Source of the DNA: Polytrichum commune | Taxonomy: Eukaryota > Streptophyta > Polytrichopsida > Polytrichales > Polytrichaceae | DNA: 64,000 nucleotides | Direction of reading: 5' to 3' | Assembly (NCBI GenBank): GCA_950295325.1 | Contig: OX485808.1 | Span: 15,704,527 to 15,768,526, forward strand | In this document: in pieces, positions 3,726 to 39,345 of the stretch | Layout of the letters: each line of letters begins with the position of its first letter | Numbering within the stretch: position 1 is the stretch's first letter | Made by a program: the position numbers and the translations under genes | Notes under the pieces: model-generated | Seen by the model: only the letters and a program-made list of their open reading frames with translations | Database searches by the model: none | What the model was told of the DNA's origin: nothing

Positions 3726-3726
3726 A

Positions 3727-4206
3727 GGCCACTTCACACACAAGACTGACAGCCCATGACCATTGCACTTCAAGCACTCTCATTGGTGGAAAAGGTGGAG
3801 TTGGTCCAAGTTCGCTTCACACTACACTTGAGGGACCAACGGAGTATGTGAATGCAAGATGGATGTAAAAGTGTACATGGAACCTTACATGGCATCAAAT
3901 GGATCATCTTCATGGTCACTTGGATTATTTTTTTAAACCACCTCTTGGAGGTAGGCCTAACACAAAACTGGAAGACCATGGCACTCCGAACGCTTATTTT
4001 TATCATGTGTGAGGACACATATGAATAGAAATTCATTGAAATAGCACATGTTTGAGGGCCTGGTCACATATGACTTCACACTACACTTGAAGATGCGTGA
4101 CCACACTACATGATTTTGGAGGTGTGTTGGGACGGCCTTTGGACACTTTCTTTTGGGCTCTCACAATCCCATGGTCACAACTCTTGGCTTGTGTGTGAAG
4201 TGGCCC
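3727..4206 (+). mobile_element. MITE-A, full-length PIF/Harbinger-type copy
   Basis: About 480 bp bounded by inverted ends. The left end begins GGCCACTTCACACACAAG and the right end is its complement, CTTGTGTGTGAAGTGGCC. The inverted similarity extends about 35 bp, reaching a shared ATGACCAT/ATGGTCAC block. The same unit recurs at 4716-5134 and, inverted, twice at 13654-14656. One of those copies has a TAA target duplication, which fits the 3-bp TWA/TTA duplications of the PIF/Harbinger superfamily. It has no coding capacity; the small frames inside (for example 3677-3868 and 3770-4036) are shadows of the repeat. The flanks of this copy no longer show a clean duplication. Confidence 0.8.
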
Positions 4207-7230: not shown

Positions 7231-8287
7231 TTTGAAATCATCCTTCTTTAGGTCCAATGATTGTACCACCATTGGAGAACTTAGCGGTTGAGCCGCATCC
7301 ATGTAGAAACACTTGAGTATCTTTAGAGTGTACAAATTTTGATGTCAAAAAATGCCTCCTGCATTTTTCGTTTGTGTAATTGAGCACATTGTATGTGGGG
7401 ATGAAGATCTTTATCACGGCCAATTGGAAAATCTAAGTATCTAATAATGCTAGGTGATTTACACCCAACATATATCCCCTCTCTCATTTGGGAGGGCCTT
7501 CTTAGTTCTTTGTGGGGGAAGAATGGGTACTATCAACTTACATCCAAAAATCTACGAGTGTTTCACGCTAGGTATTTGAAGGTGTAATGGATTCTACCAC
7601 AAAGGATCTTGAATGAACCAATGTCCATGCATGAAGGATAGCGTAACCCCATGATGAAGTATGAAGGTCAAATCTCATAAGTAATAGTTTGGCAATTAAC
7701 TACAATATCTTGATATATTAGGATTATGCTAGAACATTTGTCTCGTGGACATGTTATATTTTCATTCGAGAGAAGCTTGAGGATGGAGAAAATCAAATTC
7801 CTAACATATCCATGTATAATCAATTTGCATACATTATGAACAAGGCATTACAATGCGATGAGTTTGAGCGTTTTTGCAACCACCTCACCATCGCTTCACT
7901 AAAAACAAGAAAAAACTAGGATTTAAGTTTATTTGGATTTATGCATGAATTTTGGACAATTCCAACCGCCATTATGACATACGCTAGATTGCAAAACTAC
8001 ACAAATATGGTGGTTGATGAACATAGAATACAAACATGTGGTTGTTGTTTTTCCTATTGTCGTTTGATGTTTTGGTCCCCACAAGTGTACATCCCTTATT
8101 ATTTTTGGACAAGTGGTTTGTCCAAATATACAGTTATAAGTTTTGTATGATACAATTGCAATCACAAAATAAGTTGGTGCAACCTAGCAATTCCTCCAAA
8201 TATTGTTGTGTTCTTGGATCACGATCCTCTCACTCACTGCACCTTTCTTTCTTCCACCTCACAACAACTAAACTGGTTAGAGCTTTG
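7230..8287. other. Rest of the copia interior, unrecognisable
   Basis: Lies between the RNase H remnant and the second LTR. No conserved gag, protease or integrase motif could be read. Next to the LTR end, at 8277-8290, a GTTAGAGCTTTGTG stretch may be a decayed primer-binding site in minus sense, but it is a poor match to any tRNA end I can name. Confidence 0.4.
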
Positions 8288-8544
8288 TGTTGATAAAGAG
8301 TTACAAAATAATGATAAAAGATGAAAGAGTAATGATGGGATTTTGTACAAGTCAAAACGCAAGAGTGGGAGAGGTCACTTCTCATTTATTAACCTTCTAA
8401 TCGGGTACATATAAGTTAGAAGGTTTGATACACTCAAGGTGGCACGCCTCATCGGTAACAATGACTATAGTTCCAAGATAACATTCTTTGACGACGAATT
8501 TGGTCTACTGACACCCAATCGTTGTGGATGGTGGTGTCTTAACA
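8288..8544 (-). repeat. LTR (5' LTR in element sense) of the decayed copia element
   Basis: Direct-repeat partner of 6146-6404, ending in the same 'ggtggtgtcttaaca' on the plus strand. The two LTRs differ at many positions and by small indels, so the insertion is old. Confidence 0.6.
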
Positions 8545-8711
8545 CCATGTCATTGGTTGAACTTAAAGACATTGGGACCTTAATCGATTATGCTAAAAAT
8601 GATCCATGGACATTGGACGCAAGTAAACTTGACAGATCCATAAGTCCCATGATCTCTATGTGGCCATTCATTGTACTCACTAAAAAACCGAACAAGTAAC
8701 CAGGGTTGTCT

Positions 8712-9464
8712 GGGGCCATTCACGGTTGGGGTACTACTTTTGGCCGTCTAACGGGAAACGGACTTTTTTGGATAACTTCACATGCTTGGTATGCTTAGAT
8801 TTGTATTGTGAAGCATATTTTGGATCATACCTACATTTCATACTCCATATCGAGTACACTGACAAAGTTAATTTAGAAGGAATAGGGTCATCTAAGATAT
8901 CCTTTTGATTCCTGAAAGGACATTCAGGAGTGTTGTCTTAATTGTTCACCTTAGGATCAAGGAATGAAAAGGACAACAAGAATCAATCGAAACGATCCCA
9001 ATTTTTTTCCTCACACTCATCGTTCAAGTGTGTACCAATAGAACCAAATATGTATTGAATAGCAATTGCCCAACTTTACATGTGGCACCAAACATGTCCA
9101 AATATACATATACTTACGGCCACACGTAAAAGGAACGTCTAGTATTAGAATTGGACAAAAAAATTTATATGAATGGACACATGACACTTTTACCAAGGTA
9201 CCAAGATACATAACAGTAAATAATTGACCACCAATGCACACCTAAATAACAAAAAAATGCCACTGATGTGGCCTAGGGTTTAGGGTTTAGGGTGATTATT
9301 AAATAATAATAAAAATATTTCTTGATAAAGCTTATGAACTATCTACTTATTTATGTAAAATTTATTGATCAAATAATAGTAAATCATGATAAAAACCAAG
9401 ATCAATGCGACAAAGTCCTTAAGTCCTTTGTCCCAAAAGTAGGACCCCAACCGTGAATGGCCCC
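8712..9464. mobile_element. MITE nested in the hAT-like element
   Basis: A 753-bp element with about 35-bp inverted ends: GGGGCCATTCACGGTTGGGG at the left and CCCCAACCGTGAATGGCCCC at the right, continuing into TACTACTTTTGG / CCAAAAGTAGG. It is flanked by GTCT on both sides; removing the element and one GTCT restores the hAT end. It contains a short interstitial telomere-like stretch (two and a half TTTAGGG units near 9276-9292). The small frames inside show no family resemblance. Confidence 0.8.
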
Positions 9465-9689
9465 GTCTATTGTGTCGTGACGGAGGCTAATCCCGACATA
9501 ATGTCGTGGCGTCACGACACGTATTTGTCACGACATTATGCCGGATGCCGTCTTTATCCTGACGAACTTGAATTTTACCGTATTTTTTTGTGTAATTACA
9601 TTACCCCAATCATGACACATAGGATTTACGATGTCCACGTATGGTGCCATGTTAGCAAAGTAGAGTTAAAGTGGGAAAAAAATTACTAG

Positions 9690-9935
9690 CGCCCGTCCCC
9701 CCCCGTTCCCCCCGCTCCCTACGTTCCCCTCCCCCATCCGGCCCTCATCCGGCCCTCATCCGCCCCCCTCCCCCACCCATCCGAACCCGGTCCCCCCTAA
9801 TCCGAACCCCCTCCCCCCCATCCGTACCCCATCCGGCCCTCCATCCGGCGTTCCCCCCGTCCGCATCCGTTCCCGCCCCCGTTCCCGTTCCCGTTCCCGT
9901 CCCCGTCCGCTCCGTTCCCCTCCCCCCCACACCCT
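9690..9935. repeat. C-rich microsatellite/minisatellite
   Basis: Almost pure C with interspersed T, G and A: arrays of CCCGTT, CATCCGGCCCT and CCCCCAT words, with a terminal array of CCCGTT hexamers near 9870-9915. Every reading frame is open, giving a spurious Pro/Arg-rich frame on one strand and Gly/Arg-rich frames on the other. The minus strand has many G runs and could form G-quadruplexes. Confidence 0.85.
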
Positions 9936-10207
9936 CATGTGTCATATTTTACTACTTTGATTTTAACAGAATGATAAACACAAAGGCAAAATGATTTACC
10001 TGGCAAGGGAAATATGCACATCCACGTCGGATTTTTCTACCACATTGGATGCCACCTTGGCAAGATGGTAAGTATTTTACCCACCCTACTAGCTTCCCCT
10101 TAGTATGACCCTATGTGGACCCTATTATGTCGTGACGGAGGGGTCCGCCCCGACACGACACGTCATGACGGTGGCAGGACGTCGCGATAGACAACCCTGC
10201 AAGTAAC

Positions 10208-10789
10208 TTATGACAAGTACAACCAATGTTGGTATGGTATATAGGTGAATGTATGTATCAATGATCAATATCCAAATTGGACTTAAAGAACTCGCACATG
10301 GGTATCAATTTTTTAATATTGGTATATGATATGTCAAGATGAGAGAATCTTTGTATACCCGAATTATAATTTGAATCAATAACATTATAAATTATGTTGA
10401 TATTGCGGTGATTTAATCTAGGCGTGAAGGTTATATTTCCCAAATTGATAATTATGTTAAAGTGGTGATCTCACATGCATGATGAGACAATCTAAAGGGA
10501 GTATCTAAGTTGTCCAAGTTTTTTTTTCAAAATTTGGGTACTAAATGAACTAAGTACTACATTGTTTTTGGTATTTAGCATCACTTAGTATTGGGGATTA
10601 CGCCGAGCTTTAAATTTTGAACCAAGAATACAAGTTATCATGAAGTAAAGTTGTTTGTTATTCATGATGTCCCAAAAGAATACCTGGTCTTGTTCTAGCA
10701 TTGCATGATTTGAAACAATGAGCGACACCAAATACCATAAAGTGTGGAGTTATTTGAAAGTGCCCATCACCTCACTAAGAAACTTTGGG
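10208..10789. other. AT-rich intergenic DNA
   Basis: No gene or transposon end recognised. It may belong to the outer part of repeat D, but no second copy is seen in this window to delimit it. Confidence 0.4.
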
Positions 10790-11985
10790 TGAAGGGCATA
10801 GCCTAACCGAAAGGAAATTGATGCATGGCAAACGTACCTATCACCATCCAACATAAAATTTGACCCCAATTGGTTTGTGGTCGATTCTTCTTAAATGGGT
10901 TTGACAAAACTAATTGGGAGATCTTTGAAGCTAATTCTAGCATCAAACCCACTAAAACAAAATAACATTTGAACTTAACACTATTTTCATGATTTTTGTA
11001 GCTGATGAACGAGATTAGTCCATGTCACCACACCTTAATCTCTTTCCAACATCAATTATGTGAGTTTTGTTTCACAACACCTATGGAGGGGGAATAGGAA
11101 TTACTTGCCCTCTACATGTTTGTCGATGATTCATCCCAATTTAGAGACGCTTTACACATGGACCAAGATCTGTGACCATGAGAATCCAAGGGCCCTTGAA
11201 AATCATCCAAAGGCCTCACCGTGGGAAGAAGGAATCCAATTCCATAATTGATGGGGCCTTGAGCTTCAAGGTGTAAAGTGAAAGTGGACCATGTTGAGGA
11301 ATCACAATATATTTAATGGGCAATCCATAACAATAGGTAATCCCCTAGTTTTGTGTAAGGTTCACCTCTTTTTGACGGACCTAACACAATATTCAATAGA
11401 GCATAGAACGTTATCCACTTAGTACCATGTAGGACATCAAGTACAATTTTCATCCATTCAATCATTTTGGGTACACCATGTACCTCTTTTTTTCTTTTCT
11501 TTTTTCTCTTCTCTTCTTTTTTCAAGTAAACTTAAACATTTCCGGCATCTCGACCAATCACTTAATTAATATCACACGAGTCAAGGGCTCTCAAGCTCGA
11601 GTGTAAAGTGGCACTTGAGTGATTTGGGGCCTTTGCTAACCTTGATTTAGGGTGTAACCGAACTACGAATAGCAATCACCATGCTCTACAACACTACAAT
11701 TGGTTTCCCCCTCCCCCTCCGGAGGTGTTGGTAGTGAACCTACACCACTTACGTACTACACTATAGAATACCTATAACCATCACGAGATGACTGTAATAA
11801 GAAAGGGAATATTGTACATTCTTATCACTACATGACAATGACGATAACCCAAAATTAACACAAAGAACTTGTTAAAAAACCTTCATCTCGATCTACCTCA
11901 GGTGTCCGGTGTGTGGGTGTCATTTGGTTACTTTCTAAATCAGACGCCTCTAAATGACTGGTGTTTGGTTCAACGAGGTTTAAAA
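10790..11985 (+). repeat. Repeat D, most complete copy
   Basis: A ~1.2-kb non-coding sequence of unknown class. Another copy lies in the opposite orientation in three pieces: 43708-44430 matches about 11510-10790, 32711-32909 matches about 11745-11545, and 21618-21820 matches about 11975-11760. A more diverged trace occurs at 63720-63865. Landmarks are the palindromic GGTACATGGTGTACC block near 11470-11485, a pyrimidine tract at 11485-11522, the CTCCCCCTCCGGAGG block near 11710, and the block read inverted at 21660 as ACCGGACACCTGAGG. No clear terminal repeats or target duplication found, so the class (LTR, MITE or Helitron) is open. Confidence 0.6.
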
Positions 11986-15012: not shown

Positions 15013-17989
15013 ATGAAGATGATGACGGTTGTAGCTCTGATCCCATTGTTTCTGGGCTTGTTGTTGGATCCGATCGAAGCCAAGCATTTGATGTACCCGA
15101 CGTTCGATCGGAGCAGCCTTCGGACAGCCGAAGTGGGTGTGCCGCCTGCTACTAGTGCGCTTGCAAACCACTCCAAGAAGGGCGCGGAGGCTTTACCCAT
15201 TGGACCCCCCAAGAGTGTTGGTGGGGCGACGGCGGCGCCATGGAGACCACCTGTTGTGAATCTCCAATACCGAGGGGGACCTGTCATGACCCAGCCCATC
15301 AAATGTATCTTCATCTGGTATGAATCTAAATTCTAGAGATCGCGTGGTCAATAATGTATTTTTTGATTTTAGTTTTCGAGGTGGGAGCGAGGTGCATTGT
15401 CGATAGAAATCATCACAATCGCAACTACAACTTAAGTACCCTTATTTCATCTTGGGTCTTGAGGTTGAGCCGAGGGTGGTCGTGATGGTTTGTAGTTTGT
15501 TGGCTTTAATGGGGTCCAAATCTTTGAGAGGAATAGGAGGTGCGTCGATGACAACCACAACTACAACTAAGTATTCTTCTTTCATGTATGAACTATGATC
15601 CCAGGTTGAATTGTGCGTGGTCGTGATGGTTTGTATAAGTTTGTTTGCTTCAATGTGCTCATATCTTTGAGGATTAGGAGGTACATTCATAACCACCACA
15701 ACCACATGTAAGTATCAATTGATTATAGTCCAAGCTCATTTATGAATTACGATCCAGGGTTTAGTTGAGGGTGGTCGTATATTTAAATTGCGTTGGTTCT
15801 ATATTTGAGTGAGTAGTGGAGCGAGGAGGTGCGTTGATGACAATGACCAGAATTTACAATAACTAGGTGAACTATAATTTAGAATTAACTATAACTCAAT
15901 GCTGCGAGGGTGTGGTCGAGATTGGTGGCTCTAAATAGTTTGTTCTCGTTGTTGTCAATTAATTATCATGATGTAGATGGTTAGGTCACGATCATTCTGA
16001 TACCTCAAATATTTGTGACAAATTGTGACAAACACGTGCTTTGATTAAATTGTGGCCATACCAGGTATGGAACATGGAGTGATCACACGAAAGCTGTGAT
16101 TCGCACGGCGGTGAACTCGCTCACTCCCGCAAAACCAATCACACAAACCCCGAACCTTGCCAACTGGTGGAAGATTGTGACGAAGTACAAGCAAAAAAAC
16201 GGCCTACCCGTGACCAGCAAGGTGACCATTGCCAAAGAAATCAACGACAACTACTCGGTTGGAAATTGGTTTGGCGCCTCGACCGGTGCAGACCTGGTCT
16301 ATAATTCAGTCGTAAAGAGAGGTGGGCTCGGGTTTGACACGAGTGCCATCTATTTCCTGATGACAAGCTCAGATGTGGGATTTACGAATGCGGGTTTCTG
16401 TGGCTACCACGATGATATGTGCAATGATAGGACACATCCAGACAAATCAGCCTACTGCATCAACACGAACAATAGGATTGTCTGGGCATTTATGCCATTC
16501 CCCGGGTCGGGCAATGGCCTTCTTAGCGGCTGTAACGTGTTCTCGCCTTACGGACCAATTACATTCACACCACCCAATGACGGACCTGCTTCACCAGATA
16601 CCGGAGCTCTCGATTCTTTTATCAGTGTTTTCATGCATGAGCTAATGGAAGCCGCCACCGACCCATACGTTACTGTTGCCCCTGCTTATTTGCATAACTT
16701 GGCAGAGAATTCAGAGGCGGGTGACATGTGTGCGTATACCTATGGAGAGGATAGCTTCAATTATTGTGGATTGCAAAGCATTTATGGCACATATCACGGT
16801 GGCTTTGACTTCAGTGTGTGCGCAACGTACCCTAACTACCATGCCATGGTATATGTGTCAACCGGAAAGATTTTCAATGTCTTTGGTACTGGCGGGTCGA
16901 TGTTCCTTGTTCAGAAGATTTGGAGCTTGGCCAACAAGGGATGTCAGTTGCAACTCCAGGGTAAGCTCTCAAAGTCTAATAACGCAATATTTCTATGCAT
17001 AGTATTGGTAGTTCCAGGGGGTCTCAGAACCTCCCAGGTTTGTGATGCAGTGCTGTGTGCTGTTAATTGTCTTGAATGTGAACGCCCCTTTCGTATTCTA
17101 ACCTCCCCGTAAATTAAGGTCCTTGATTACATGCATGATTTCCGAGCCTCTCAAATCAGTTAATACCTTGAGCACTAGTGCCTATCTTTGGACATGAAGC
17201 CTTCTCCCATTCAACAAGTTTCAAATTAAAGGGGTGGCCCGGAATTGGGATCATGCTTAGGATATCTAGGTAAATTATAAATGATCGATCCAAGTTTACC
17301 TTGTGGCTGCTCAAGATTTATGAGAAAACTCCTCCATTCTCCTATAAATAGAGATACAGATACTAGGATGGATCATCCCAATTGATTGAAGCCTGTTGAT
17401 CTGAGCATGTGGAAGTTATTGATGAACATGCGGGGGAGTTGTGTTATGTTATGGTCTATCTGAGATACAAATGAGGAGAAACCATACTGCTGTAAAGGAA
17501 GATGCGTCCCAATAACCACTCCATTTCGTTTGACGGGCATTTGTGGAGCATGTTGAAGCTGTTCCGAACATGCAGGAGAGATTACTGATTTGATTTGTTT
17601 CTTTTGTTTATTCGGTTGTTACAGAGGGCTGCGCACCACTGACAAAACTGACAGCTCCCGGGGGGGTGATCGAGAGGTCCGTCCACGCATTCACCACCAT
17701 CGGGCTACAGACATACGCTCCGGGAGAGAATTGCGTATGGATGATCACGGTGGCCAATGCGAAGTGGATCTCGTTGAACTTTGAGACCATCGGCACTGGG
17801 TATGACACGCAAGACTACGTGAATGTCTACACAGGGAAGAACGTACTCTTGAAGAGCTTCTCAGCCGTAAGCACAAAGGGCACGCTGAAAGTTATTGGAA
17901 ACATCGCCATCGTGAAGTGGGTGAGTTCCGGGCTAAGAAGCCCTTACCCCGCCGCAACCGGATTCCATTTGACCTACACTTCGGGCTAG
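15013..17989 (+). CDS. Secreted EXORDIUM/phi-1 domain protein with C-terminal CUB domain
   Basis: Three exons: 15013-15317, 16065-16960 and 17625-17989. The introns are GT-AG (phase 2, then phase 1) and join to one 521-residue frame. Residues 1-23 form a signal peptide (basic start, then a long Val/Leu/Ile core). Residues about 83-400 match the EXORDIUM/phosphate-induced-1 family: LQYRGGPV and FIWYGTW at the start, NWW, the Cys-rich GFCGYHDDMC, the HELMEAATDPY helix (His near 293), then GDMCAY and a C-terminal KGC. Residues 403-519 form a CUB fold: ENCVWMI, ISLNFETI, YDTQDYVNVYTG, and a final strand FHLTYTSG. Only the first CUB cysteine pair is present. EXORDIUM proteins are apoplastic and tied to growth control; CUB domains bind proteins or glycans. 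The fusion is unusual. ATG 15013 was chosen because it directly precedes the signal peptide; in-frame ATGs at 14986 and 14968 are alternatives. Confidence 0.85.
15318..16064 (+). other. Intron 1 of the EXO-CUB gene, with tandem repeats
   Basis: Donor GTATGA and acceptor CATACCAG. Between about 15465 and 15870 the intron holds three to four degenerate tandem units of 125-150 bp. Each has a GGGTGGTCGT(GATGG) block, a TTTGAG block, a GAGG(T)GCGTTGATGACAA-like block and an ACTATGATCC(AGG)-like block. Frames inside the repeat, such as 15442-15705 on the minus strand, are not genes. Confidence 0.7.
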
Positions 17990-21162: not shown

Positions 21163-21200
21163 GGTTGCATCAAATGTCTTAGATTTACAATCTCACGGAG

Positions 21201-21600
21201 TTAGAGCATCCTCAGTCGGTCTAGGTAAAGCTCACTGCAAACCAAAACCTATCTTCTGACTGACCTAAAATTAGAAACTGAAATTACCATCATTAGAAGC
21301 ACACCTAAATAAACGTGAGATATTTCTCAAGAAAAAAGAATTGTAAAAATTTGACGTAGGTGAAATCCCTCATTGAAAACACCACATTTTCAAAATTTAG
21401 AGGGAGTGCACCAAATCTTGCTTAAAAATGGAAAGATCCTCCCACACTCCCTCCAAATTTTTGACATTTAGAGGGAGTGTGGGAGGATCTGTCCATTTTA
21501 AGCAAGATTTGGTGCACTCCCTCTAAATTTTGAGCAATTTTAAGCAAGATAGGTCTTGGTTTGCAGTGAGCTTTACCTAGACCGACTGAGGATGCTCTTA
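21201..21600. mobile_element. MITE-E, foldback PIF/Harbinger-type element with TTA duplication
   Basis: Element 21204-21597 has ~54-bp inverted ends, nearly identical: GAGCATCCTCAGTCGGTCTA at the left and its complement at the right. It is flanked by TTA on both sides (21201-21203 and 21598-21600). A second inverted pair (about 21395-21460 with 21468-21530) makes most of the element a long hairpin. The closeness of the arms implies a recent insertion. The TTA duplication suits PIF/Harbinger. Confidence 0.85.
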
Positions 21601-21617
21601 CATGTATAGAAGAATTA

Positions 21618-21820
21618 ACCAGTCAATTAGAGGTGTCTGATTTAGAAAACAACCAAATGACACCCACGCACCGGACACCTGAGGTAGATCAGGATGGATG
21701 TTTTTAAACAAGTCCTTTGGGTTAATTTTGGGTTGTCGTCACTGTCATGTAGTGATAAGAATGTAAAATATTCCCCTTCTTATTACAGTCATCTCATTAT
21801 GGTTATAGATATATTCTATA
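21618..21820 (-). repeat. Repeat D, left piece of the broken copy
   Basis: Inverted match to 11975-11760: 'gaggtgtctgatttagaaa', 'ccaaatgacacccac.caccggacacctgaggtagat', 'tcactacatgacagtgacgac' (inverse) and 'tcttattacagtcatctc'. It stops at 21820, exactly where the Tigger-like terminus begins. The sequence continues on the far side of that element at 32711. Confidence 0.75.
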
Positions 21821-22059
21821 ATGTTCTCCCTCTTTAGTATGACAGGTTTGAGAAACACAAAAAATGTCGTAGTATCGAGGTGTTGTCTTCTCATGAGTAT
21901 GACAAATGGCGTAAAATTGTCGTACTATTGAGGGAATACAAAAACATAAGCAATATGAGCTTAAAAATATATACAACGAGTTTAAGCAATATAGATTGTA
22001 TGAAATAATAATTTATAACTCCAAACAAATACAAATATTCTCAAGAACTCTTGAAATAG

Positions 22060-22874
22060 GACTTTAAAGGATTTTGGTGTTGTTTACGCAAGTTAGCAAT
22101 TGTCATCTTATCTAAATTCCCTACTATCTTTTGAAAACCAATAATTTCATGAACACCATACATTTTAGACAACAATGATGCATGACGTTTAGCATCACTA
22201 AGCTTTACTGTAGGTGGAGCAACATCATCTACATCTATTGATTGTAGATCAACATTGAGATAAAAGCCTTATGCATAATTGATTCCCAAAGCAACAACCA
22301 CCAACTTATCAATACTCAATTCTAGCTCAGTGTTCTCTTCCCCTTCCATCTGAATGTAAGTCTCGATTGACATCTTACTATCACCCAATCGCAACTTTGA
22401 AATCAGAGCAGCAAGTTCATGTAATTCTTCTTGCATTCTATTCTTCTCCCTTTCATCAACTAGGATAAAATCAACATACTATATTGCAAGTAATATACAC
22501 GTCATCCTCCAACAATTCCTTACTATATGTGCATGCAACTCAGTCCATACTTCGTAACTCCACATGATAGTCTGTTTGATGTTGGGCACCACCTTCCTTA
22601 AGTCCTTCAATGTAACATCATCATACTATGTTAAAACCCACTGCAAAAGTTTCTACTTGTATTGAATTTTGAAAGATGCTATTATACCTTGATCCAAAGG
22701 TTGAACTACTCCTGTAACATTGGGAGGAAGGAATACCAAAGTCATGTTGCTCAATTTTAAAGGGGGAGTGCTATCATGTGAGCGGTAACTTGTGAACAAC
22801 GAGTGAGGAAACATATTTGGAAATACACACACTAGTACCCTATATCCGTGGTATTTTGGCATAAATAATAACAT
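22060..22874 (-). pseudogene. DDE_1 (pogo/Tigger, CENP-B-like) transposase, C-terminal remnant
   Basis: Read from 22874 on the minus strand, the frame reaches LSNMTLVFLPPNVTGVVQPL followed by DQGIIASFKIQYK. This is the highly conserved block just after the second catalytic Asp in Tigger/jerky/CENP-B transposases. Past the stop at 22653 the family C-terminal helical region can be followed to about 22080, with a few stops: DVTLKDLRKVVPNIKQTIM, then WSYEVW, then MQEELHELAALISKLRLG, then ELELSIDKLVVVALGINYA. The N-terminal helix-turn-helix domains and the first catalytic Asp region are not found upstream (22875-23280 is AT-rich non-coding). The gene is therefore dead or split by large introns. 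Confidence 0.75.
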
Positions 22875-23289
22875 ATTTGTTCTATAACAAAATTAATGAA
22901 GAGTTAAAAAATGCAATTATCCTAATGAATGCCTAACTCTACTTTTAAATCCAACAACCGTAAGCTTGGCATGAGGGTTTGAAAAACGATTTTAATATTT
23001 TTGTTGGATTCAACATCCAATTTTAATAACAATGCAAGCACCTTCCAAGTATTGCTTTAAACTGTATTTCTAGAATTCATGTAAGTTTGAGAAATGAATT
23101 GATGGAGGTAATTAAGTTTTAGGTAATTAAGAGGAAATTGCTCACACAATTCAATGTCCACTAGTTGTGGTAATTTAAAATGAAGAATCCAAACTTTGCC
23201 ACACATCCAACCAAATAATATCCAATCCAATCAAACATATAGTGGATGGTATTGACAACTATCTTAATGTCCCTAAACTAGTCTAGCTT

Positions 23290-25191
23290 AATTAATCATT
23301 CAGATCATCGCATTGAACCGCCTCATCATCTATATACAGGTAATGAGCAATTCGTGCAGACATATGGCGAGGAGTTGGCATCGCCGACCCTGCCATGATA
23401 TGAGCAACATACTGTGCATATACTAGCAAACTCATAATCCGAGGAGAAGTCATGTTTATTTTTTTAGCAAAATAAAATCATAGGTGTTAGATTTCTAGTG
23501 CACACACACCATACATTGGAGGCCAAGTTAGCAAACAATATGGAGAAATTGAAAACTTACGTACGCAATCGATTTTTTCTCGCAACCTTCTTAACATGCT
23601 CTTCATCGGAATCGATGGAGGCATTATGTGGCATAGATCCACCTACACTAGGATTTGGCAGTGGATTATTTAATGGGGATAGAATGGCATCAAATAGTGC
23701 AAAGTCTTCCTCATATGCAACTAGATGATGGCCACTATTTCTGCAAGCATGAATAGATGCACATGCCAATGAAAAATTGAAACGCCAATTAATTTGCACA
23801 AGCCACTACCAACACTACAGTGACTTCATTGAGACACATTGAGAGATGATATAATAGGTCGTTGAGTAAGAGATAAACCAACCTGTAGATGCGTAGCATC
23901 GAGGACAACCAATGCATGAGTTGTTAAAGCCTCTATTAAGATTTGCATCGATTCCGAGTCCTTCTCCCAATCACCTCTCTGTGGCACTTTTCAGTTCATG
24001 AGTTGAGTGCTTACCGATGTGAGATTGAAATACACGTCCAAGGCCTCCACATCCACCTCAGAAATTGCATTTTTCTTTTGAAAAACAAACTCCAACTTGG
24101 GAGTAGAACGAAGAAACAACATGATCCGGAAACGGCGAATCTATAAACCACGAGAAAACATTCAGCGGGGGAATCGATTGCAAAATTAAAGAGAACATTG
24201 CAATACAATTAAAAAACAGAAATTGAAGTAATAAATAATAGAGTTTAGTGTGTACCGTCAACACTGTATCAAGTGGATAACAAAAAGACAACTTGTTGAT
24301 ACCCTACCAATCTTTTCACAATACAATTTCATAAGAGGCCGCGAATGTCCTTACATCGTCTCTGACATCTTTCTTCTTAGGGACGAACAAAAACAAGGGC
24401 CATCATCGGTGAGATATGCACATGCAAATTCAAATAGTGCCTCAATGTTTTTTATCTTATGGTAGTTCCAAGCTGGGATTACATGTGGAGGAGATGAAAC
24501 ATTAGGCATAGGCAAACCTTCTGGCGAATATGCAATAATAAAATCAAAACTCCCAAAATTACAATCCTATGAAGAAACCCTCCTCTTCTGTCCGGAAACC
24601 ACCTATCAAAAAAAATTTAAAAAAATAATAATTACACTCAAGTGCAAAGTATGTTGTAACAACAACACCATATTTATAAAATAAAAGTAAGTTCGACAAT
24701 CAATATACTACCCTTAGTCACAAATTTGAAGGTTTTTAACATTAACGGACACTCATGACCACCACTCTTCATCAATGTTCATATGAAAATCTTCTCCGAT
24801 ATCACTGAACAAATTGCCCCGGAAGGTGAAGCACCACTAACAATAGTTTTTGGCACATGTTGAGATTGTAATGATCTTGAAATGGGAAAAACTTAGATCC
24901 ATCATTACCTTGAGTGTTAGGTGTGGATGTTGGACGGCTAGGAATGCGTGCCATGACACTACTTTGAGAGGATGGTATTGGGTTAGCCTCATCTACTTTT
25001 GAGCCATGTTTACGTTTAGTTTTTTCCTCCAATTTGACTACTTTCACCACACACACATCCTCATCGTCTATCATGTCAATATCATCAGGAGGCAAGTCTA
25101 TTGGACGTGACTGTTTCTTGAGCTGCTCCTCCTTACTTGAACAAAATGTAAGAAGATACTCAATAAACGATGAATAAAACTTTAATATCAT
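23290..25191 (-). pseudogene. DNA-methyltransferase-like gene remnant (C-terminal part)
   Basis: A string of minus-strand segments with consistent character. 25191-24802 begins in an acidic linker (PPDDIDMIDDEDVCVV) followed by a Ser/Pro-rich basic stretch. At 24475-24240 come FEFACAYLTDDGP and, after a frameshift, FVPKKKDVRDDVR and a KDW element. At about 24110-23900 come EVDVEALDVYFNL and RGDWEKDSES (spanning stops), then LVVLDAT. At 23799-23557 come IHACRNSGHHLVAYEEDFALF and AILSPLNNP. The last part has the form of the motif X/I region of N4/N6-type DNA methyltransferases (acidic D.TA...A.ACR..GRH.V..E.D...F...L.P). Several stops and frameshifts show decay. The assignment rests on pattern memory and is moderate at best. 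Confidence 0.4.
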
Positions 25192-25863
25192 ATTCTTATT
25201 TGGGTTTTGTCAATCCATGAAAAAAATCAACTCGGAATGGAGCCAAGGAAGATGGCGCTTGAAGCCAATAGCTCGTTTTTTTATGTATCTTTGAAATAAA
25301 ATAACTAGTTGATTGAAAATAATTAATTAATTACTTAAGAATAAATTTGAAGCATGCGAAGAAAAAATTGAAGCCATGAGAGAGAAAAAAAAATTACCCA
25401 AATACTATCCGTTTGATAGCAATGCTTCCTCCAAAAACTTTACCGAGTAAACTAGATTTTTTAAATACACTTATGCCACAAAAAATGACTAGAATGTTTT
25501 TGTCCAAAGCATAATGCGTTATTTTTCAATGTACTCAGCAGGCCTAAGTACATGTGCGTCCCAAAGAATCTTGACCATCATTTATTTTTCCATATTTACA
25601 AATTGTTTCACAAAATCATCTTCCATCTGCAAAATGACATATACGCATCACGACCATTGAACAAATCATAAAATATTCAAAATTCGAAATAAAAACACAT
25701 GTACATTTAAGAATAAGAGAACATCTGGGTCCAAAAGGATACTTTGATCAACTATTTTTCAACGTCATTTTTTTTTGTATCTCCCAATAGGAAGTGCAGA
25801 GATTCACGGGATATGTCGCTAGAATTCTACCACCTCAACCATATAATTTTAAAGACTAATCAT

Positions 25864-27091
25864 TTACAGTTTCCCTAGGGTCATGGCAAACTTAGAATGA
25901 TCTCTAATTTTTTTATTAATCTCCAAAATGGAGGGTAAAAATAATGAATGACTTTCATATAGGACGCCAAAATAAATATTACATAGAGAAACACAATGTC
26001 TTACCTCATTCAAGAAGTTGAGGCCATTGGCTAGATTAGCGACAACGATAAGTTTTTTAAATTCTTTTACACGAATTGATGATATTTTTTTCTTGTTGTA
26101 TTTTGCATAACGTCCCAAATACCTTTTGTTGTTCTTGATTGAAGTGGAGTTTTCTCATTGTATTTACGAGATGTCTCTTTGGACATAGAAGCTATCTCAT
26201 GCTACATAAACAAAAATAAATTAGCTAAAAATCCTATAGCAAAAATATCTTGAAGATTAAGGCTTAGCATGAACTAAAATACTTATTTCGTATAAGAATT
26301 GAATAGAGACTTTCAAAGAGATGGTATACCAAATCTCATTTCCACCTTTCTTCAAACATTTGGAGTATTAATCAGGGGTAAAAAAAATTTTAAATTTCTC
26401 TAACATCCTAATTGCAAAAATTTGGACAAAATGTAATTTATTAACCAAATTTTTCTTAATATGATGCAATTTTGTAGACCTTACAAAGATGACCAAAAAA
26501 TGAGAAATATTTATAATTTTATAATCACAAATAAAAAGAAATGAAAATTATGGATCATAAAATATACATGTTCATATAGTGCATAGCATTTAGAAGAAGG
26601 GCCACCAAACCAAATGATTCAAACACTATACAATCAACAAAGAATTGTCACTCTGTATATTTGTCATGAAGCCTATTGATATGACAACGCCAAGTTGTGA
26701 CGTGATGGTTACCCTCCCAAACAAAAAATATTTTACCACAAAACCTTTCATAATTCTTGTTGTTCTTAATGATTTCTTCAAATGATTTATTGGAAGATTG
26801 CCAGTATTCTTTCCAAATATCTACATCTCGAATATTCATAATTTTTTCATCTTTGTCATATAGAAACGTATACAATATTCTATCACGTTCCCTACAATTA
26901 TTGACAAATTTATTTTCTAAAAGTTGGAAATCGACTTTCAAGATTGGTCTCACAACAAACGACAATATCAATTGATAAAAGATAATTAAAAATCTTGACT
27001 TTGAAAACAACTTCATACAAAGTCTTCCAATCAAATAATTAAATTTTTGTATTTTGCAAATGTTGCAAGTGAGATATAGTCTCTTGCACAT
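25864..27091 (-). pseudogene. ParB/sulfiredoxin-like domain remnant, probably same gene as the methyltransferase
   Basis: The 147-codon frame at 27091-26648 (-) contains VDFQLLENKFVN, IMNIRDVDIWKEYWQ and ERFCGKIFFVWEGNHHVTTW. A strand pair ending in an EGNHR-like turn (here EGNHH) followed by a helix is the core of ParB/Srx-fold proteins. After the stop, the frame goes on to FVDCIVFESFGLVALLLNAM. A further piece at 26118-25864 (-) is Lys/Asn-rich with NEVRHCVSLCNIYFG. The order on the minus strand is ParB-like first and methyltransferase-like second, the arrangement of phage and prokaryotic ParB-methyltransferase modification proteins. Introns or decay separate the pieces. Fold assignment is inferred, not computed. 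Confidence 0.4.
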
Positions 27092-27289
27092 TCAACAAAT
27101 CATTGGGCAGATGATGACCACTATCGTCATTCCTACCATCGTCAAATATAAATCACAAAGGAAAAATAAATCAACATATGACTATTAAACAACAAACATT
27201 TTTCAATCTAATGAAATAAGTATTATTCCTAAAAAAAACCATTTAAAATAAAGAAATAAGCAAGTTAGGCAAACTCAACTTTGAATGTT

Positions 27290-28195
27290 TTTTACTTAAA
27301 ATTTAGAGCACACAACAATCATCAAGCGAACATCCCAACTACTTCTAATCACAAAAACCAAGACAAAACACCATGAGAATATACAAAAAAGTGCAAAAAT
27401 GCAAGAAATAAATCATGAAATTTCAAAAAAACTTATCTTTAAACCGAGATTTAAAAAAAAAAATAACATTCGGGTTTTTTTTTAATGCTTCTTTCTTTGT
27501 TATATTTGTGACCATTAGAGTCCATCTTGCTGCATCTTATGAGACTAAGTGGAGGGGAAAGGTAATCAAATCCATCCTCTTAACCTTCAAGAAACTTTAG
27601 AAGCTTCAAGCTTCTTGATTCAAATTTTGAAGCATACAACAACTATCAAGTGAACATCCCAACAACTTTTAACCACTCATACCAGGAGAAGAGGCAAGCA
27701 AGGTTTCCAAACAAGTGCAAGAAATCAAAGAACTAGCAAAAAAATAAATAAGAAAAAACCCTAAATTTTCAAAAAAACTTGTGTCGGAACCAAGAGTCAT
27801 TTTATTGAAATTTCAAAAAAAATTCTTGTTTTTTTATTTTTTTATTTTTGTACGCATTAGTCTTTTTGTTGCTGCATCTTATGAGAGTAAGCGGCAGGAA
27901 AAGATGATCATTTCCATCCTCTCAACCTTTAAAAGAAATTGAAGCTTTTTGATTCAAATATTGGAGCATACAACAACCATCAAGCGAACTCCTTACTACT
28001 TCTAACCACACATACCAAACACAAGATACAAGAAAGATGTACAAACTAGTGCAAGAAGGTGAAGAAAACTAGCAGAAAAAGAAGCAAGAAAAAACCTTGG
28101 AATTTAAAAAAAAATTGTCTAGGAACCTAGACTTATTTTTTTGAAAATTCCGGATTGGTTCTTGCTTCTTTCTTTGTTGTTTTTGTGGGTATTAG
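27290..28195. repeat. Tandem repeat of about 320 bp, three units, the third split by a solo LTR
   Basis: Each unit has 'gcataca.caac.atcaagcgaacatccca', '...caagaaa', 'aaccgagat/aacctagac', 'cttctttctttgttatttttgt', 'ttgctgcatcttatgaga.taag' and 'aatccatcctcttaacctt'. The third unit breaks at 28195. It resumes right after the LTR at 29853 (ctcttggtgcatcttataagactaag...atccatcctttcaacctcaag), confirming the later insertion. Confidence 0.75.
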
Positions 28196-29852
28196 TATTC
28201 TGTGAGCCCAAAATGGTGTTCACATGTGTTCTTAAGTCTTTGAGACCATTAGAAGTTATGTTTTAACGGTTATTAATTATTCACAAAAATATAAAAAGAG
28301 TGAAGTGTGTTGTGGATTAAGTTTAGACATTAGGGGGTGTTGTGTGATTGTCTCAAGGTTTAAGTTCAATGAGATAATGCCTTGACTAGGTGAGTATGAA
28401 GTAAGGTGAGGCGAGAGGGGATCCGCGGGTTAAATGCCCATATTAGGATCTACCTTGTTGATTTAAGAATGGAAGAGCCTTGTGAATGGTATGAGTCCTT
28501 ACTTAGAAAGAGAAGGTTAAGGGGTTGTGATTGGAGGCTCTAATCCTCTCACCCTATCCTTACCTTATGCCCTCTCCTCCTCTTTGCTATTTAAGACCTC
28601 GTTCTTCCCTCATTCATCATCTCTTTTCTTCGTACTCATTGGCACCCCATGTGTTATAAGTGTGGGTGTGTGGGAAGCAAGATAAGAGCACGTGTGTGTG
28701 CATGGATGTAAGGTTAGGAGCCAAGGCTAGTTGGCCTTGAAGAGGGCTTGACCTTCTGTTAGTAATAGTCGGGCGTGAATGATTTAAAGTTCAATTTATG
28801 GCTTTGTTTGACTACTTGGATTTACATTGATTAGCCTTATACTTATGCGGATGTGAAAAGTCTCTTATTGGAGCATTTAGTTTTGTTGGACTTCTTATGA
28901 ATTTTTTAAAGCCAAAAAACCGAGACTATGTCCAAACTTCCAAAAACTAGTCAAAAAATGTAGATTAAAAGGGAACAGCGTAGAATTGCGACCATATACT
29001 TTTTGGCAGTAGAAATATTATTGCATATTCATGTAGAGGACTTTATTACCTATCCATGGATACCAAGAACTCATTTTTTGGACTTCATATGAATTTTTGA
29101 GAGCCAAAAAACTGAAACTATGTCCAAACTTCCAAAAACTAGTGAAAAAATGCAGATTCAAAGGGAACAGCGTAGAATTGCGACCATATATTTTATGGCA
29201 ATAGAAGTATTATTGCATATTCATGTAGAGGACTTCATTATCTATCCATGGATACCAAGAACTTATTTTTTGGATTTCATATGAATTTTTGAGAGCCAAA
29301 AAACCGAGACTATATGCAAACTTCCAAAAAAATAATGACACATTCTTATAGTTTTTGATTTATGATGTTTAGACTTAAAGTGTTGGATTCATTAGGCAGG
29401 AAGGAGTGTGTGTAACTTTTAAATATGTTGGTCATTGACCATTGAGGTTGAACTTAGTAATGGAATGTGAAGGCCTGTGAAAGAAAGGCCACCATAAGTT
29501 ACACAAGTATTTGTTAATACTTAAACTTATGTGCTTCATGGAATCAACAAGCGAAAATTCGTGCAGTAGTGTAGAATCAACGGCAAAGACTCGATTCACA
29601 CGAGAGAAATCATTGAAGCCAGGCGTAGCCAAGGCGGCCGGGTGGACATTGGAGAAGGCTAAGGATGTGACCTTATCCGAAGTTAAAGAATATAAGATGA
29701 CATAGTGTGAGATTAGTCAAGTTGTGTATATTCCAAGGGTATATTGGAATCATACATTGAATTACCGAGGGAGGATTTTCTACGTGTCATTATAACTTTT
29801 CCACTCGGGCTAGGACGAAATCGAAGGGTGAGAAATTTTTTGTGACATATTC
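28196..29852 (+). mobile_element. Solo LTR of the TGTGAGCCC family (copy 1)
   Basis: LTR 28201-29847 (1,647 bp), starting TGTGAGCCC and ending in a decayed TGTGACA. Flanked by the 5-bp duplication TATTC at 28196-28200 and 29848-29852. It shares with the copies at 45286 and 45622 the opening TGTGAGCCCAAAATG..., an ATAAAAAGAGTGA block near 28290 that could be the TATA region, the GAAGGTTAAGGGGTTGTGAT block near 28516, and the GCCAAGGCGGCCGGGTGGAC block near 29625. No internal coding region adjoins it, so recombination between LTRs removed the body. Two ~235-bp direct repeats ('ccaaaaaactgaaactatgtccaaacttcc' and neighbours) lie near 28880-29330. Confidence 0.85.
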
Positions 29853-29997
29853 CTCTTGGTGCATCTTATAAGACTAAGAGAAGAGGGAAGATGATCAAAT
29901 CCATCCTTTCAACCTCAAGACATTACTCAAGCAAATTGGCGGACAATGCTCAAGCAAATTAGAATGCGGTCATGAAGATATATGGTGGAGGTGGACC

Positions 29998-31720
29998 ATG
30001 AAGATATATGGCGGTCGTGAACGCATTTGCTTTTTTGATTGGTCACAAAGCTTGGATAAGGTGACGCAGAATGATATCAAGGCATCTTTACAGTTTCAGC
30101 ACAAGCAGCTATGCAAAGATTACAAAGATGCAAAAACAATGGACGAAGCCAAAACTAAATATCATGTCATTTATTCATGGTGGTTGTCATCCAGAGCTGC
30201 CACAAAAGAAGACATTCACAGGCTCTCCGAGTGATTGGGGTTCATGCACTTCCGTTATGGGCAATGAGGTGGTCATATGATTCTTGTAAGTGCATCGCCA
30301 CTATGTATTTTTCAATGTTCTTTAATTTGAGTATCCATGATATATATATACAATCTATTATAATTTGTGTAATGTTTGCATGAAATGACTATGGATGAAC
30401 GCGCAGAAATGCCAACGTGTAACCTTGCAGAGACAATGCACAACAAATGGCTTTAGCAGTTTGGAAACAAGATGACTTGTCTATGTAAAAGGACAGTGGA
30501 CGACTTGATCTGTGCATTCATACACATTGCAAATTACAAATCGTAATTGAGAGGTGATTCTATTGGTAAAGACCCTGATTCCGTGTCCTTGAAATTAAAG
30601 GCTATTGCTCAGTGTGGAGATCCGAAGCTACTAGTAGATGCCATGAAGTCCTATCCGAGGGCGGAAGATCTCAATACTAAGGATTGTGCGTTGGAGGGAT
30701 CTGAGCTGTTTGGATCCACCAAATGGAACCTTGATCTGCCACCGGGTGTGGATTGCTACTCACATTGACCCAACAAAATGAACTACTTGATTCCTCACCC
30801 CACTAGAGTTAAAAAAGCATGCACAGAGGAGTTTTTGAATTTTGCAGAGCATGGTGTGACACATACCATATCAGTGTAAGAAACTGATTGCCCTTCTTCT
30901 TATTGGTATATTGCAAGATGTTGGGCAATGCAAGCCAATATAGGGACTTTGTGTAATGCCAAAGTCGGAACTTACAAACATGGCACCCCTGCTCCTATGT
31001 ACAAAGGATTGAAGAAGGGATACCGCTCCACCAACAATGTGGAGTACAAGATTTTGTTTTGCCCTAACGACATCAAGCATCGTGTAAATGACAACAAAAG
31101 GAAGTACGTGCTAGACTGACGTGTAGTACCCAACACATGGCATGTGAAGATAGGTACCAATCTCTCAAGGCAGGAGGTATTGGCGCTCGAAGACGTTGGG
31201 TTCCAATTGCAACAAAGGGAGGTTCTTTCTTCTCCAAGTAGGCTTTCCACAATTGCGACGCTCCCAATCCCTCGGACGGATTTCCGTGTGCCACTAAAGT
31301 CGAATGCTCATCCAACTTCCAGGTTTGGAAAGACAGTGCATCGCAATCTTGGAGCACCGACATCATATCACAAAAACAAATGGGAGAGCGCCGAACTCAT
31401 GGACGATTACTATGTGGTTGGAGTAACTACCATTTCATATCCTGGATTTAGAGTCCTAATCATCATCGTCTCCAAGGAGGACATCGCATATTATATCACA
31501 ATTGCTGACATGCTACATGGTACATGCCCTGACTTCACGAAAATATCATTTTAGTCTTTGGGAAAGAAAAGGAAATGGGTGTATTGCAAACATCTTTATT
31601 ATATGTTTAAATTTTTGTTTAAGGTGGATTACGCTAATGACAAGTTCATTCACACTCCAAGTGTTGTATTCAACCGCATGTTTAAGAATTTTAGTAAGTG
31701 ACATGTATTGGTGTGGATTA
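29998..31720 (+). pseudogene. SWIM-type zinc-finger protein gene, decayed, transposon cargo
   Basis: A series of plus-strand pieces in collinear order. 30038-30234: FDWSQSLDKVTQNDIKASLQ, then a helical DAKTMDEAKTKY stretch and WWLSSRAATKEDIHRLSE. 30384-30545: NLAETMHNKWLQQ, then a helix ending in ANYKS. 30547-30768: DPDSVSLKLKAIAQCGDPKLL. 30940-31119: KVGTYKHGTPAPMYKG. 31144-31690: the C-terminal part, with DYYVVGVTTI, DMLHGTCPDFTK, WVYCKHLYYMFKFLFKVDY and NDKFIHTPS. The Cys in TCPDF and the CKH fit the second half of a SWIM finger (CxCx(n)CxH). SWIM fingers commonly occur in MULE-type transposases and in transposon-borne proteins of plants. At least four stops plus a possible intron (GTAAGT at 30287) interrupt it. 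It is convergent with the methyltransferase-like gene. Confidence 0.55.
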
Positions 31721-32579
31721 TTATAATAAAAATCATCAATGGATAGATGGTTTTAAAAAGTACCTATGATAATAGGCTCCCTTCACTCTTGTTCAATCAA
31801 AATGTGAGTATTTTATAATTCCTAAATTGAAAAAATACAAGTGCCAATTTTAGAGTATGTACCCTAAAACTGTGCCCAGTTACTATATTTGGCATCATTG
31901 CTCACATGGTATTGCTCACTGCTCTTTGCTCACTGCTCATCGCTCATGTCTTAGCTTCCCTCATTCCAAGGTTGACAAACCACAAGACTTACGAACTTTG
32001 GCAAAGCTAACAACATGTGAAGATGCATTATCCAAAATCATTATCACCTTTCAATTTTGGCCTTTGAAGTGATTGTTGAGCTGCAAAATCCAAGCTTCAA
32101 ATATATCCCCCTTCATCCAAGCTGTTTCATTTGAGTGCCACCAAACATACTCATGAGGTTGCCTCCTTCCAAAACATCATGGTTGCTTAAACATATAAAT
32201 CACAAGCAACTTCAACTCATTAGTCCCAGTTGAATTAACGGCAAGAGCAAATGTTCTCGAGCAAATGTTACACATTCCTTCTGTAACTTCTGACCCTTCA
32301 CCTTCCCTTGTGCTAATGTTTTATTAGGATCTAGTCTCATCCATGTTCTAAACATCTTTAGGCTCATAATTTGACAAAAAAAGAAAGAAGGAGGCCACTC
32401 TAACCCTAACCAGGTCCATTCTACACTAGTATCCCTAATTATCAATAAGTTTCCAATGATAAATGAAGTTCCCAAGTAGTTCCCAAGTGAAAATGGATGT
32501 ATTTTAGATGTACATAACATAGATGAAAGGAATGTATGCATTAATTACATCTTGAATATGACAAAACAGAGATTTTAAA
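31721..32579. other. Non-coding part of the Tigger-like element
   Basis: AT-rich, with a triple 'gctcactgctc' microrepeat near 31913-31945. The 109-codon minus-strand frame at 32212-32541 has no recognisable domain. Confidence 0.4.
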
Positions 32580-32710
32580 TGTTGTATTATTGAGAGTCGT
32601 AGTCGTATAAAAGAAGGAGTTTTGAACTAAAAAGTTTGGTCGCGCAAAAATTTGTTGTAATATCGAGGATGTCGTATAAACAAGTGCCGTACTAACAAGG
32701 TTAAACTGTA

Positions 32711-37512: not shown

Positions 37513-39345
37513 TAATTGGCGACCATCAGGGGAGGGACACATATTTTTTTGCTCTGGAGGCAAGATGTCCATCTTCAGGTCCTACACTCCTTACAACGGC
37601 TCCCAGAGGTGCGGGTTGGGAATGGTTCCCCGTTGAATGTCTCCAATTGGATAGAGTTATTTGGGAATACCTCACTAATGAGATATAGCCCTAGCCACAT
37701 CGCGTCGAACTTACTTGGGAAGTCTAACTTCCTAGTGTCCTAAAGTAGGACGAGCATACCTGCTCTTAGGGTGCGTTTCTTGTGTTTTTTTTTATCAAAG
37801 GTGATTTTCCGCCTTCGTTGGATAGCCTCAATATGTTAGACACTCCTATGCCGGCTTTCGTCCAAACACTCTAACACAACCAATCTACTTTTTAATGACT
37901 GACTATTGGTTAGCCTTGAATCAATAGCCACTCTCAACGACTCTACCTCGAATTCGATGGGGAGGGTGGTTTCAATGTCGTAGACCAGTGAAAATGGAGA
38001 GGCTCGAGTCGTTACTTTAAAGATCGTTCTATAAGCCCGCAAGGTAGTTGTGAGTTTTACGTCCCAGTCGCGTTTAGAATCTTACATTGTCTTCCTCAAT
38101 ATGCTCACCATGGTTTGGCTCACTCTCTCGGTCTGGCCGTCTGTCTGTGGGTGGTAAGGTGTGGTCTTCCGGTGATCAATTTGGAACTTCTCAGTCATCT
38201 CGCGGATCATATCGTTCAAAAAGTGCGTGCCCCTGTTGCTAACTAGGATTTTGGGACAACCAAACCGAGAAATGATGTTCTCGTACAAAAATACCGCGAC
38301 ATTCGCGGCGGTATCCGTCCTTACAACCTTGGCCTCTGCCCATTTGGTTAAATATTCCGTCGCTACCACAATATAGGCCATGCCCTTAGATGATTTCGGG
38401 TGCACCTCTCCTACATAGTCGATGCCCCACTTTTCGAATGGAATCAGGGGTAGCGACACGTGCAAGGGTAACTCCATCATTAGGTCGTTCCTAGCATAGC
38501 GCTGACAGGCGTCGCATTTCCTAGCATGAGTGTGAGCATCCTCGAATAACGTGGGCCAACAATATCGTGCTCTTAATATCTTTTGGCCAGTGAGTTACCC
38601 CGAGAAATGTCCACCACATGCACTATCGTGACAGGCTTCTGAGATCGCTAGCACCTCCGTGGCGGCCACACAACGGCGAAGTAGGCCATCTACTCCCCGT
38701 CTAAACATATGATTTCCCAGTATTGTATAGTACCTACTGTGCACCCTTACTTTACGGCGCTTCTCCCTTGACCACTCAGCTGGCAACTGTTAAGTGATGA
38801 GGAACTCAACTATCTCCGCATACCATTATGGTTGGATGGTCACCACGAAGAGATTCTCATCTACAAACCCATCATTTACCGGTGCCGTGGCCACTTGTTC
38901 CGACAATCTTGACAGGTGATCCGCATGCAAGTACATTTTCTCGGGTTTGTATTCGACGGTGTAGTCGAACTCCTCTAGCAGCAAACCCATCGCGTTAATC
39001 TACCGCTCAACTCTAACTTGTTTACTAAAAATTTAATAACCATATGGTCCACGAAAAAAACTAGCGGGTTACACAGTAGATAGTGACGGAATTTTTTCAC
39101 CGAGAAGACTATAGCCAAGTATTTTGTTTTCGTGGTGGAGTAGTTACGCTCAGCTATGGTCAGTTGTCTGCTAGCGTATACCACTGGTTGATCCTTCTCC
39201 ATCTTTCCGCTAGGCTGACACAATGCACTATCTACAACCACTGCGCTAGCATCACAGAATACGTGAAAATGAATGCTCCTATTCGGGGGCATTAAGACTA
39301 GATACGAAACATTAACGATTTCCGATATCAAGATGATTATGGACT
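37513..39345 (-). pseudogene. Ty3/gypsy pol: RNase H and integrase, broken
   Basis: Minus strand. 39331-38975 is RNase H: FHVFCDASAVVVDSALCQPS, YASRQLTIAERNYSTTKTKY and FRHYLLCNPLVFFVDHMVIK, the start of the tether. 38786-38595 has the end of the linker (RRGVDGLLRRCV, then ACHDSACGGHFSG). 38480-38082 is the integrase core: FEKWGIDYVGE (first Asp), YLTKWAEAK, GCPKILVSNRGTHF (second Asp changed to Asn in the usual SDRG motif) and TTPYHPQTDGQTERV with the distal Glu. 38042-37836 is the C-terminal domain. The sequence then decays but can be followed as far as PFPTRTSGSRCKE just before the LTR. Frameshifts and stops abound; reverse transcriptase, protease and gag are missing beyond 39345. Confidence 0.85.

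Follow-up and report, generated by a model that had tools for sequence, protein, structure and literature searches.

We analysed a 64,000-nucleotide stretch of the Polytrichum commune genome (contig C6, 15704527-15768526; hereafter the window), and searched the 407.8-Mb assembly of 64 contigs for relatives of what it holds. Positions 21821..32708 are a 10.9-kb insertion, which a sequence-only reading had taken for a single giant pogo/Tigger-like transposon with a methyltransferase-like gene and a SWIM-finger gene as cargo. The insertion is two nested transposons: a Mutator-like element, here called X (22763..31962, plus strand, decayed), lies within a shorter, older and unrelated pogo/Tigger-like element whose own DNA is 21821-22762 and 31963-32708. 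This account of two nested insertions, including the two-gene make-up of the X lineage, is very probably correct. The outer element has TA at both edges (21819-21820 and 32709-32710) and interrupts a repeat, repeat D, between 21820 and 32711. The two flanks match one contiguous, uninterrupted copy of that repeat at 11962..11524 on the minus strand of the window. Near the left end, the C-terminal part of a minus-strand DDE_1 gene (22653..22762) gives a Pfam match (E 1.2e-8, 35.2 bits, cut-off 22) that runs ~28 bases into X; besides this match, Pfam returned only sub-threshold hits to unrelated families for the window pieces. Within X lies a solo long terminal repeat (LTR; 28201..29847) that begins with TG, ends in CA and is flanked by a duplication of TATTC (28196-28200 and 29848-29852). 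The interrupted repeat, its TA edges, the DDE_1 domain and the solo LTR had all been recognised from the letters of the window, and each is borne out here.

The left 200 bp of the outer element is a high-copy repeat, with 40 scored matches (from 1422 candidates) at 91-100% identity, and ten copies were fetched, 20 kb each. In eight of them window positions 21821-22756 are joined directly to ~31963-32709, without the SWIM and methyltransferase genes, while the other two match parts of the ends only. Six of the short copies measure ~1.7 kb; the other two, at ~1.35 kb, are shorter still by some 345 bp missing from the right side. TA stands directly at the left edge in 8/8 and at the right edge in 6/8. 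The empty-site junction in the short copies reads GTTGCTCAATTCCAAGGTTGA or close to it, where the window holds the insertion, and in one of them (C1_61.0) a single minus-strand DDE_1 frame crosses the junction with no stop there. Because the short copies read through, the DDE_1 frame is continuous and the target repeat is contiguous, the 9.2-kb middle entered the transposase gene of the outer element later. The outer element is pogo/Tigger-like by its TA edges and DDE_1 domain, which it has in common with pogo/Tigger elements, and the SWIM and methyltransferase genes are foreign to it. A single giant Tigger, with the short copies as deletion derivatives sharing one breakpoint, has genuine outer termini and TA edges in its favour, and short derivatives of large transposons are common in general, but the short copies lack the cargo genes, an outcome that the sequence-only reading had itself named as refuting it, the DDE_1 frame is continuous across the supposed breakpoint, and the sequence at the junction is that of a later arrival with its own termini and duplication; at least nine other X copies, elsewhere, likewise have duplications of their own. 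We give this explanation almost no credence: the empty site, together with X copies at independent positions, refutes it.

The idea of a plant DNA transposon with methyltransferase-like and SWIM genes does hold for the inner element X, though not for the Tigger. The left end of X reads ATTTTAAAG followed by GGGGAGTGCTATCATGTGAGCGGT, and its right end CTTCCCTC followed by ATTCCAAGG. The outer words of these are the two copies of a 9-bp target duplication (left, 22754..22762; right, 31963..31971), with three transitions separating ATTTTAAAG from ATTCCAAGG. End comparison placed the terminal inverted repeats at 22763..22786 and 31939..31962 (both plus strand); they are imperfect in the window, with 15/24 positions matching by eye. 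A relative, X1 (loci L029 and L030), aligns to window 22760-31932, that is, to the bounds of X, and is 11,468 bp long from terminus to terminus, with a perfect 10-bp duplication, TGGTCACAAC. X1 abuts a 575-amino-acid open reading frame (ORF) that is hAT-like by eye (X1 coordinates 3-1727), and holds a 334-bp palindrome (3544-3877) absent from another copy, C7_1.02. Both ends were read in eight further X copies, of which six have exact 9-10-bp duplications and one an 8/9 match; for the eighth, of which only six flank bases were fetched, all six match. For the nine best SWIM matches outside the window, a left X end was found by eye upstream in the same orientation in 9/9, 10.6-13.9 kb off including the SWIM stretch (the other 30 loci were left out of this pairing). 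Over the left 5 kb, C7_1.02 and C5_31.65 are 93-97% identical to X1 across the main blocks. Internal repeat units of ~330 bp (27281..28186) are repeated in X1 too. The window X has no match to X1 7541-10957, a segment that covers the greater part of the transposase core as well as the opening exons of the second gene; with the core gone and stops in the SWIM exon, the window copy is dead, as had been supposed.

The two genes of X are present in the window as broken remnants, the methyltransferase-like one on the minus and the SWIM one on the plus strand. They had been described as facing each other, which is wrong: they are divergent, back to back. Of gene 1, the window retains the residual end of the transposase core exon (29937..30319, plus strand), its upstream part being the segment of X1 that is unmatched, and the SWIM-finger exon (30373..31660, plus strand), assigned by ORF and homology as the C-terminal part of the transposase. 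X1 has 548- and 458-amino-acid ORFs on its plus strand, which are read as two exons of one transposase, and the SWIM gene of the window is the last transposase exon. Its homologues number 45 proteins at E <= 0.001, the best being 68% identical over 99%, and the four SWIM ligands (C-x-C, C-x-H) are invariant in 14 aligned homologues, though Pfam SWIM matches stay below the cut-off throughout for the window, X1 and Y. The words FDH, FMADS, RTCxFHW and NLAE are kept between X1 and a second family, Y (below), in a predicted D...C-x-x-H...E order; the order D...D...C-x-x-H...E is a MULE (Mutator-like element) transposase signature. Gene 1 is predicted to encode a DDE-type transposase that ends in a SWIM-like finger.

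Gene 2 of X1 is a multi-exon gene on the minus strand, back to back with the transposase, with an N6/N4-type DNA-methyltransferase domain. By homology to X1, three methyltransferase blocks remain in the window, all on the minus strand: the first (24256..24602) carries A-Y-S-P-E-G where X1 has D-L-P-E, the second (23881..24138) ends, in X1, in the S-adenosylmethionine (SAM)-binding motif, and the last (23661..23769) runs from ACRNSG to VAYEED. The same gene-2 exons occur in the left 5 kb of C7_1.02 and C5_31.65, mostly open, with some blocks broken. Gene 2 matches a PHROG DNA methyltransferase family (E 3.8e-5), and in Y it matches PF01555 at E 4.1e-6 and 27.3 bits, above the curated cut-off of 26.7. 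The NCBIfam CcrM model matches Y gene 2 at E 4e-6, but with 26 bits against the model's cut-off of 830. A profile built from three methyltransferase sequences found DpnA (E 5e-4) and CcrM (E 0.01) in the PDB, and the matched portion of gene 2 is mainly the SAM-binding half. The methyltransferase pieces of the window gave chance matches only in the PDB and, when joined, no match at E <= 0.001 among 5.8 billion proteins; the X1 piece gave six matches at E <= 0.01. In one homologue, P0051, an ORF on a 10,176-bp contig, the SWIM end follows directly on the last methyltransferase exon, which looks like a deleted element that had both genes. Viral-contig scans with P0001 and P0046 returned no relatives. 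A tblastn search of phages with the methyltransferase returned 186 records, the best 20 of which lie at E 0.1-7; many of these 20 are annotated as DNA methylase or methyltransferase, and some as hypothetical. Further upstream in gene 2 lies an exon (26720..27140, minus strand) to which the label ParB had been given. What speaks for that label is a G-N-H-R-x-x-A-W motif: no ParB profile match was obtained for gene 2 in any profile or sequence search made, the matches returned by one of them (E 0.26 and up) were chance matches to unrelated proteins, and a single-sequence model of the window ORF reached a mean predicted local distance difference test (pLDDT) score of 44.8, unusable as a structure match. 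We keep "ParB-like" as a name for the motif.

A second family, Y (C6:3330700-3349500), has the same two-gene layout as X1. Y is 15,365 bp long, with a 10-bp duplication, AGCACAAGGG, and G-rich terminal inverted repeats matching at 16/25 positions. By tblastn, the core ORF of its transposase is 49% and the SWIM ORF 42% identical to the X1 counterpart, and the two transposases agree at 50.2% of 610 aligned residues, spanning the core and the start of the SWIM exon. Gene 2 of Y occupies the same divergent position, with 41-42% identity to X1 in the methyltransferase domain and 42% in the ParB-like exon. Given this shared layout, and the Y methyltransferase domain above its Pfam cut-off, gene 2 belongs to the element lineage. 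Both families also carry inward-facing GAGCR words in the outer 160 bp of each end, three and three in X1 and four and six in Y, with none on the other strand, against an interior mean of 0.19 per 160 bp and strand and an interior maximum of three; these arrays are probably candidate binding sites for the transposase. Two loci (L047 964-2343 and L048 5796-7043) hold a Y-type gene 2 with the methyltransferase core in one exon. The genome search with the methyltransferase returned dozens of single-frame matches to query residues 15-211 at 37-41% identity, many with equal scores, which suggests a recently amplified family. Y itself lies between a kinase ORF and an ORF resembling a nucleotide-binding site, leucine-rich repeat (NBS-LRR) protein with many leucine-rich repeats (L048/L049), perhaps one host gene that was interrupted.

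We then asked how often the two genes lie together in the genome. The methyltransferase query gave at least 207 matches, from 150 scored of 2409 candidates; 125 places were copied by hand for the count, most rows that were further exons of copies already listed being left out. On the SWIM side, 40 of 45 matches were used, five second fragments being dropped. Among the matches listed, a methyltransferase lies no more than 12 kb from 13 of the 40 SWIM loci, in divergent orientation in all 13 cases; chance would give 0.6 pairs if positions were random in the 25 kb to each side, orientation ignored. A further group of transposases, the P0015 type, gave 83 matches, ten of them with a methyltransferase within 16 kb among the matches listed, eight in divergent orientation. 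Linkage may be undercounted for Y- and P0015-type elements. Two SWIM exons (C4:43309566 and C5:38659033) are 82-83% identical to the window in DNA, but the methyltransferase partners of these two reach only 52-53% protein identity to the C7_1.02 query. Faster evolution of gene 2, or its exchange among families, may account for this.

Three other features of the window lie outside the nested insertion. Just left of the outer element, 21200-21601 forms a nested, near-perfect hairpin with 56-nt arms at 96% and more arms inside these; it is probably a miniature inverted-repeat transposable element or a small foldback element. At 16045-17989, ORFs resemble by eye a secreted EXORDIUM-like protein with a CUB-like domain after it, and minus-strand ORFs at 37836-39343 suggest, again by eye, a Gypsy-type retrotransposon represented by reverse-transcriptase/RNase H and integrase pieces.

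Is gene 2 a working part of these elements? It could instead have been captured as a passenger that does nothing for the element and that a few families happen to carry. MULEs often capture pieces of host genes, as parts of one source describe (PMC6446971). Several results tell against our own reading of gene 2, and of these the non-canonical catalytic motif, the substitution ratios among recent copies and the loci without a partner favour a passenger. The PF01555 match falls below the cut-off in X1 (E 8.4e-4, 19.8 bits) and C7_1.02 (E 0.026, 14.9 bits), and the Y-like ORF at L047, which lacks the last exon, has no PF01555 match. The canonical N6/N4 catalytic motif, [DNS]PP[YFW], does not occur in the gene-2 copies read; at this position X1, C7_1.02 and Y have D-L-P-E, C5_31.65 has D-L-P-K and L047 has D-I-P-E. 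In C7_1.02 a V also replaces the D of the SAM motif. Between X1 and two recent copies the ratio of nonsynonymous to synonymous substitution rates (dN/dS) is 0.31-0.91, from few changes, with one block free of synonymous change. Among the matches listed, 27/40 SWIM loci and 73/83 P0015-type loci have no methyltransferase partner, and 2/10 P0015-type pairs are not divergent; the unpaired loci may reflect undercounting or a real absence of gene 2. Against a passenger stands the position and orientation of gene 2, which X and Y share even though their transposases agree at only ~50% of residues. D-L-P-E also recurs in the homologues P0046-P0049 (P0050 and P0051 do not reach the motif). Furthermore, comparing the window with X1 gives dN/dS values of 0.46, 0.31 and 0.17 in the methyltransferase blocks, 0.25 in the ParB-like exon and 0.40 in the SWIM exon, a similar constraint on both genes, although neutral decay of the window copy accounts for part of this divergence. 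We therefore think it improbable that gene 2 is a mere passenger, and return to it below as a component of the lineage.

Classification of X and Y is by anatomy, since their duplications and SWIM-like finger fit MULEs, yet there is no Pfam MULE match. Parts of the literature give MULE target duplications as 8-11 bp (PMC6446971), a range that takes in the 10 bp of X1 and of Y, the exact 9-10 bp of six of the eight further copies, and the 9 bp of the window with its three differences. With MULEs, including plant MuDR and VANDAL, X and Y share duplications of this length, terminal inverted repeats, a SWIM-like finger and a second gene beside the transposase. Unlike them, they have no Pfam MULE match, and their second gene is methyltransferase-like. 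They might instead form a separate DDE superfamily with SWIM fingers and 9-10-bp duplications. In favour of this, the X1 and Y cores gave no match to PF10551 (the MULE transposase) or any other transposase at E up to 10. The SWIM half, modelled from 14 sequences (mean pLDDT 69.5), also matched no PDB fold at E <= 0.001. Set against this, the duplications, the G-rich inverted repeats and the SWIM-like finger fit MULEs, as does the D...C-x-x-H...E order, and we judge a separate superfamily unlikely. Kyakuja-Dileera-Zisupton (KDZ) elements have 8-bp duplications, and membership there was rejected on duplication length only, the copies tested having 9-10 bp. X and Y are thus predicted to be Mutator-like.

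The extra genes of MULEs named in parts of two sources are FAR1, OTU, SET, PMD, DUF, VANC and Ulp1 (PMC6446971, PMC13317346), and the word "methyltransferase" is absent from the main texts of both. We recognised no paper on a methyltransferase-carrying MULE among the matches listed in full-text literature, a search that excluded subscription journals, preprints and Repbase; in the searches made, we thus found no earlier description of methyltransferase-like cargo on such an element. Gene 2 resembles beta-class N6/N4 methyltransferases (DpnA, CcrM and phage DNA methylases) in motif order and in the SAM-binding half. It differs from them in having D-L/I-P-E for [DNS]PP[YFW], and in sitting, with introns, on a plant transposon. 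As an analogy, VANDAL with VANC likewise joins a Mutator-type element to an accessory DNA-acting protein, although VANC is not described as a methyltransferase in the parts of the source concerned (PMC13317346). In plants, N4-methylation is described from Marchantia sperm, in parts of two reports (PMC8885841, PMC8566409). There MpDN4MT1, which makes N4-methylcytosine, is, like gene 2, a bacterial-type N-methyltransferase in a plant, a likeness drawn from description only; unlike gene 2, it is described as acting genome-wide and having no extra domains (same sources).

In the history we propose, a short pogo/Tigger-like element first inserted at TA. X, a Mutator-like cut-and-paste DNA transposon, then entered its DDE_1 gene with a 9-bp duplication, and later gained the solo LTR, lost ~3.4 kb and died. 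The lineage of X comprises elements of 11-15 kb whose two genes are transcribed divergently, and the 9-10-bp duplications show that integration takes place with a staggered cut. Its gene 1 transposase would bind the GAGCR arrays inside both ends. Gene 2 combines the ParB-like exon, named for its motif only, with a beta-class-like N6/N4 methyltransferase domain whose SAM-binding half is recognisable. Methylation by gene 2 is doubtful, because the catalytic motif reads D-L/I-P-E in most of the copies read. By analogy with VANC, we tentatively propose, as a possibility short of an even chance, that it may be an accessory DNA-binding, SAM-dependent or SAM-sensing protein that acts on the element's own DNA, in escape from silencing or in licensing of transposition. 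A more specific version, in which the lineage carries an aimed methyltransferase-fold protein that would mark or shield its own DNA against host silencing, with a chemistry altered by D-L/I-P-E, seems to us somewhat unlikely.

In plants, DNA methylation keeps transposons silent, and to our knowledge few element-encoded countermeasures exist, VANC being one. A transposon family with many copies, some of them 93-97% alike, and an accessory gene of methyltransferase fold would offer a test case for whether an element can write, read or block a mark on its own DNA. Through a putative relation, gene 2 may also shed light on the entry of bacterial-type N-methyltransferases into plant genomes, the Marchantia enzyme being an example.

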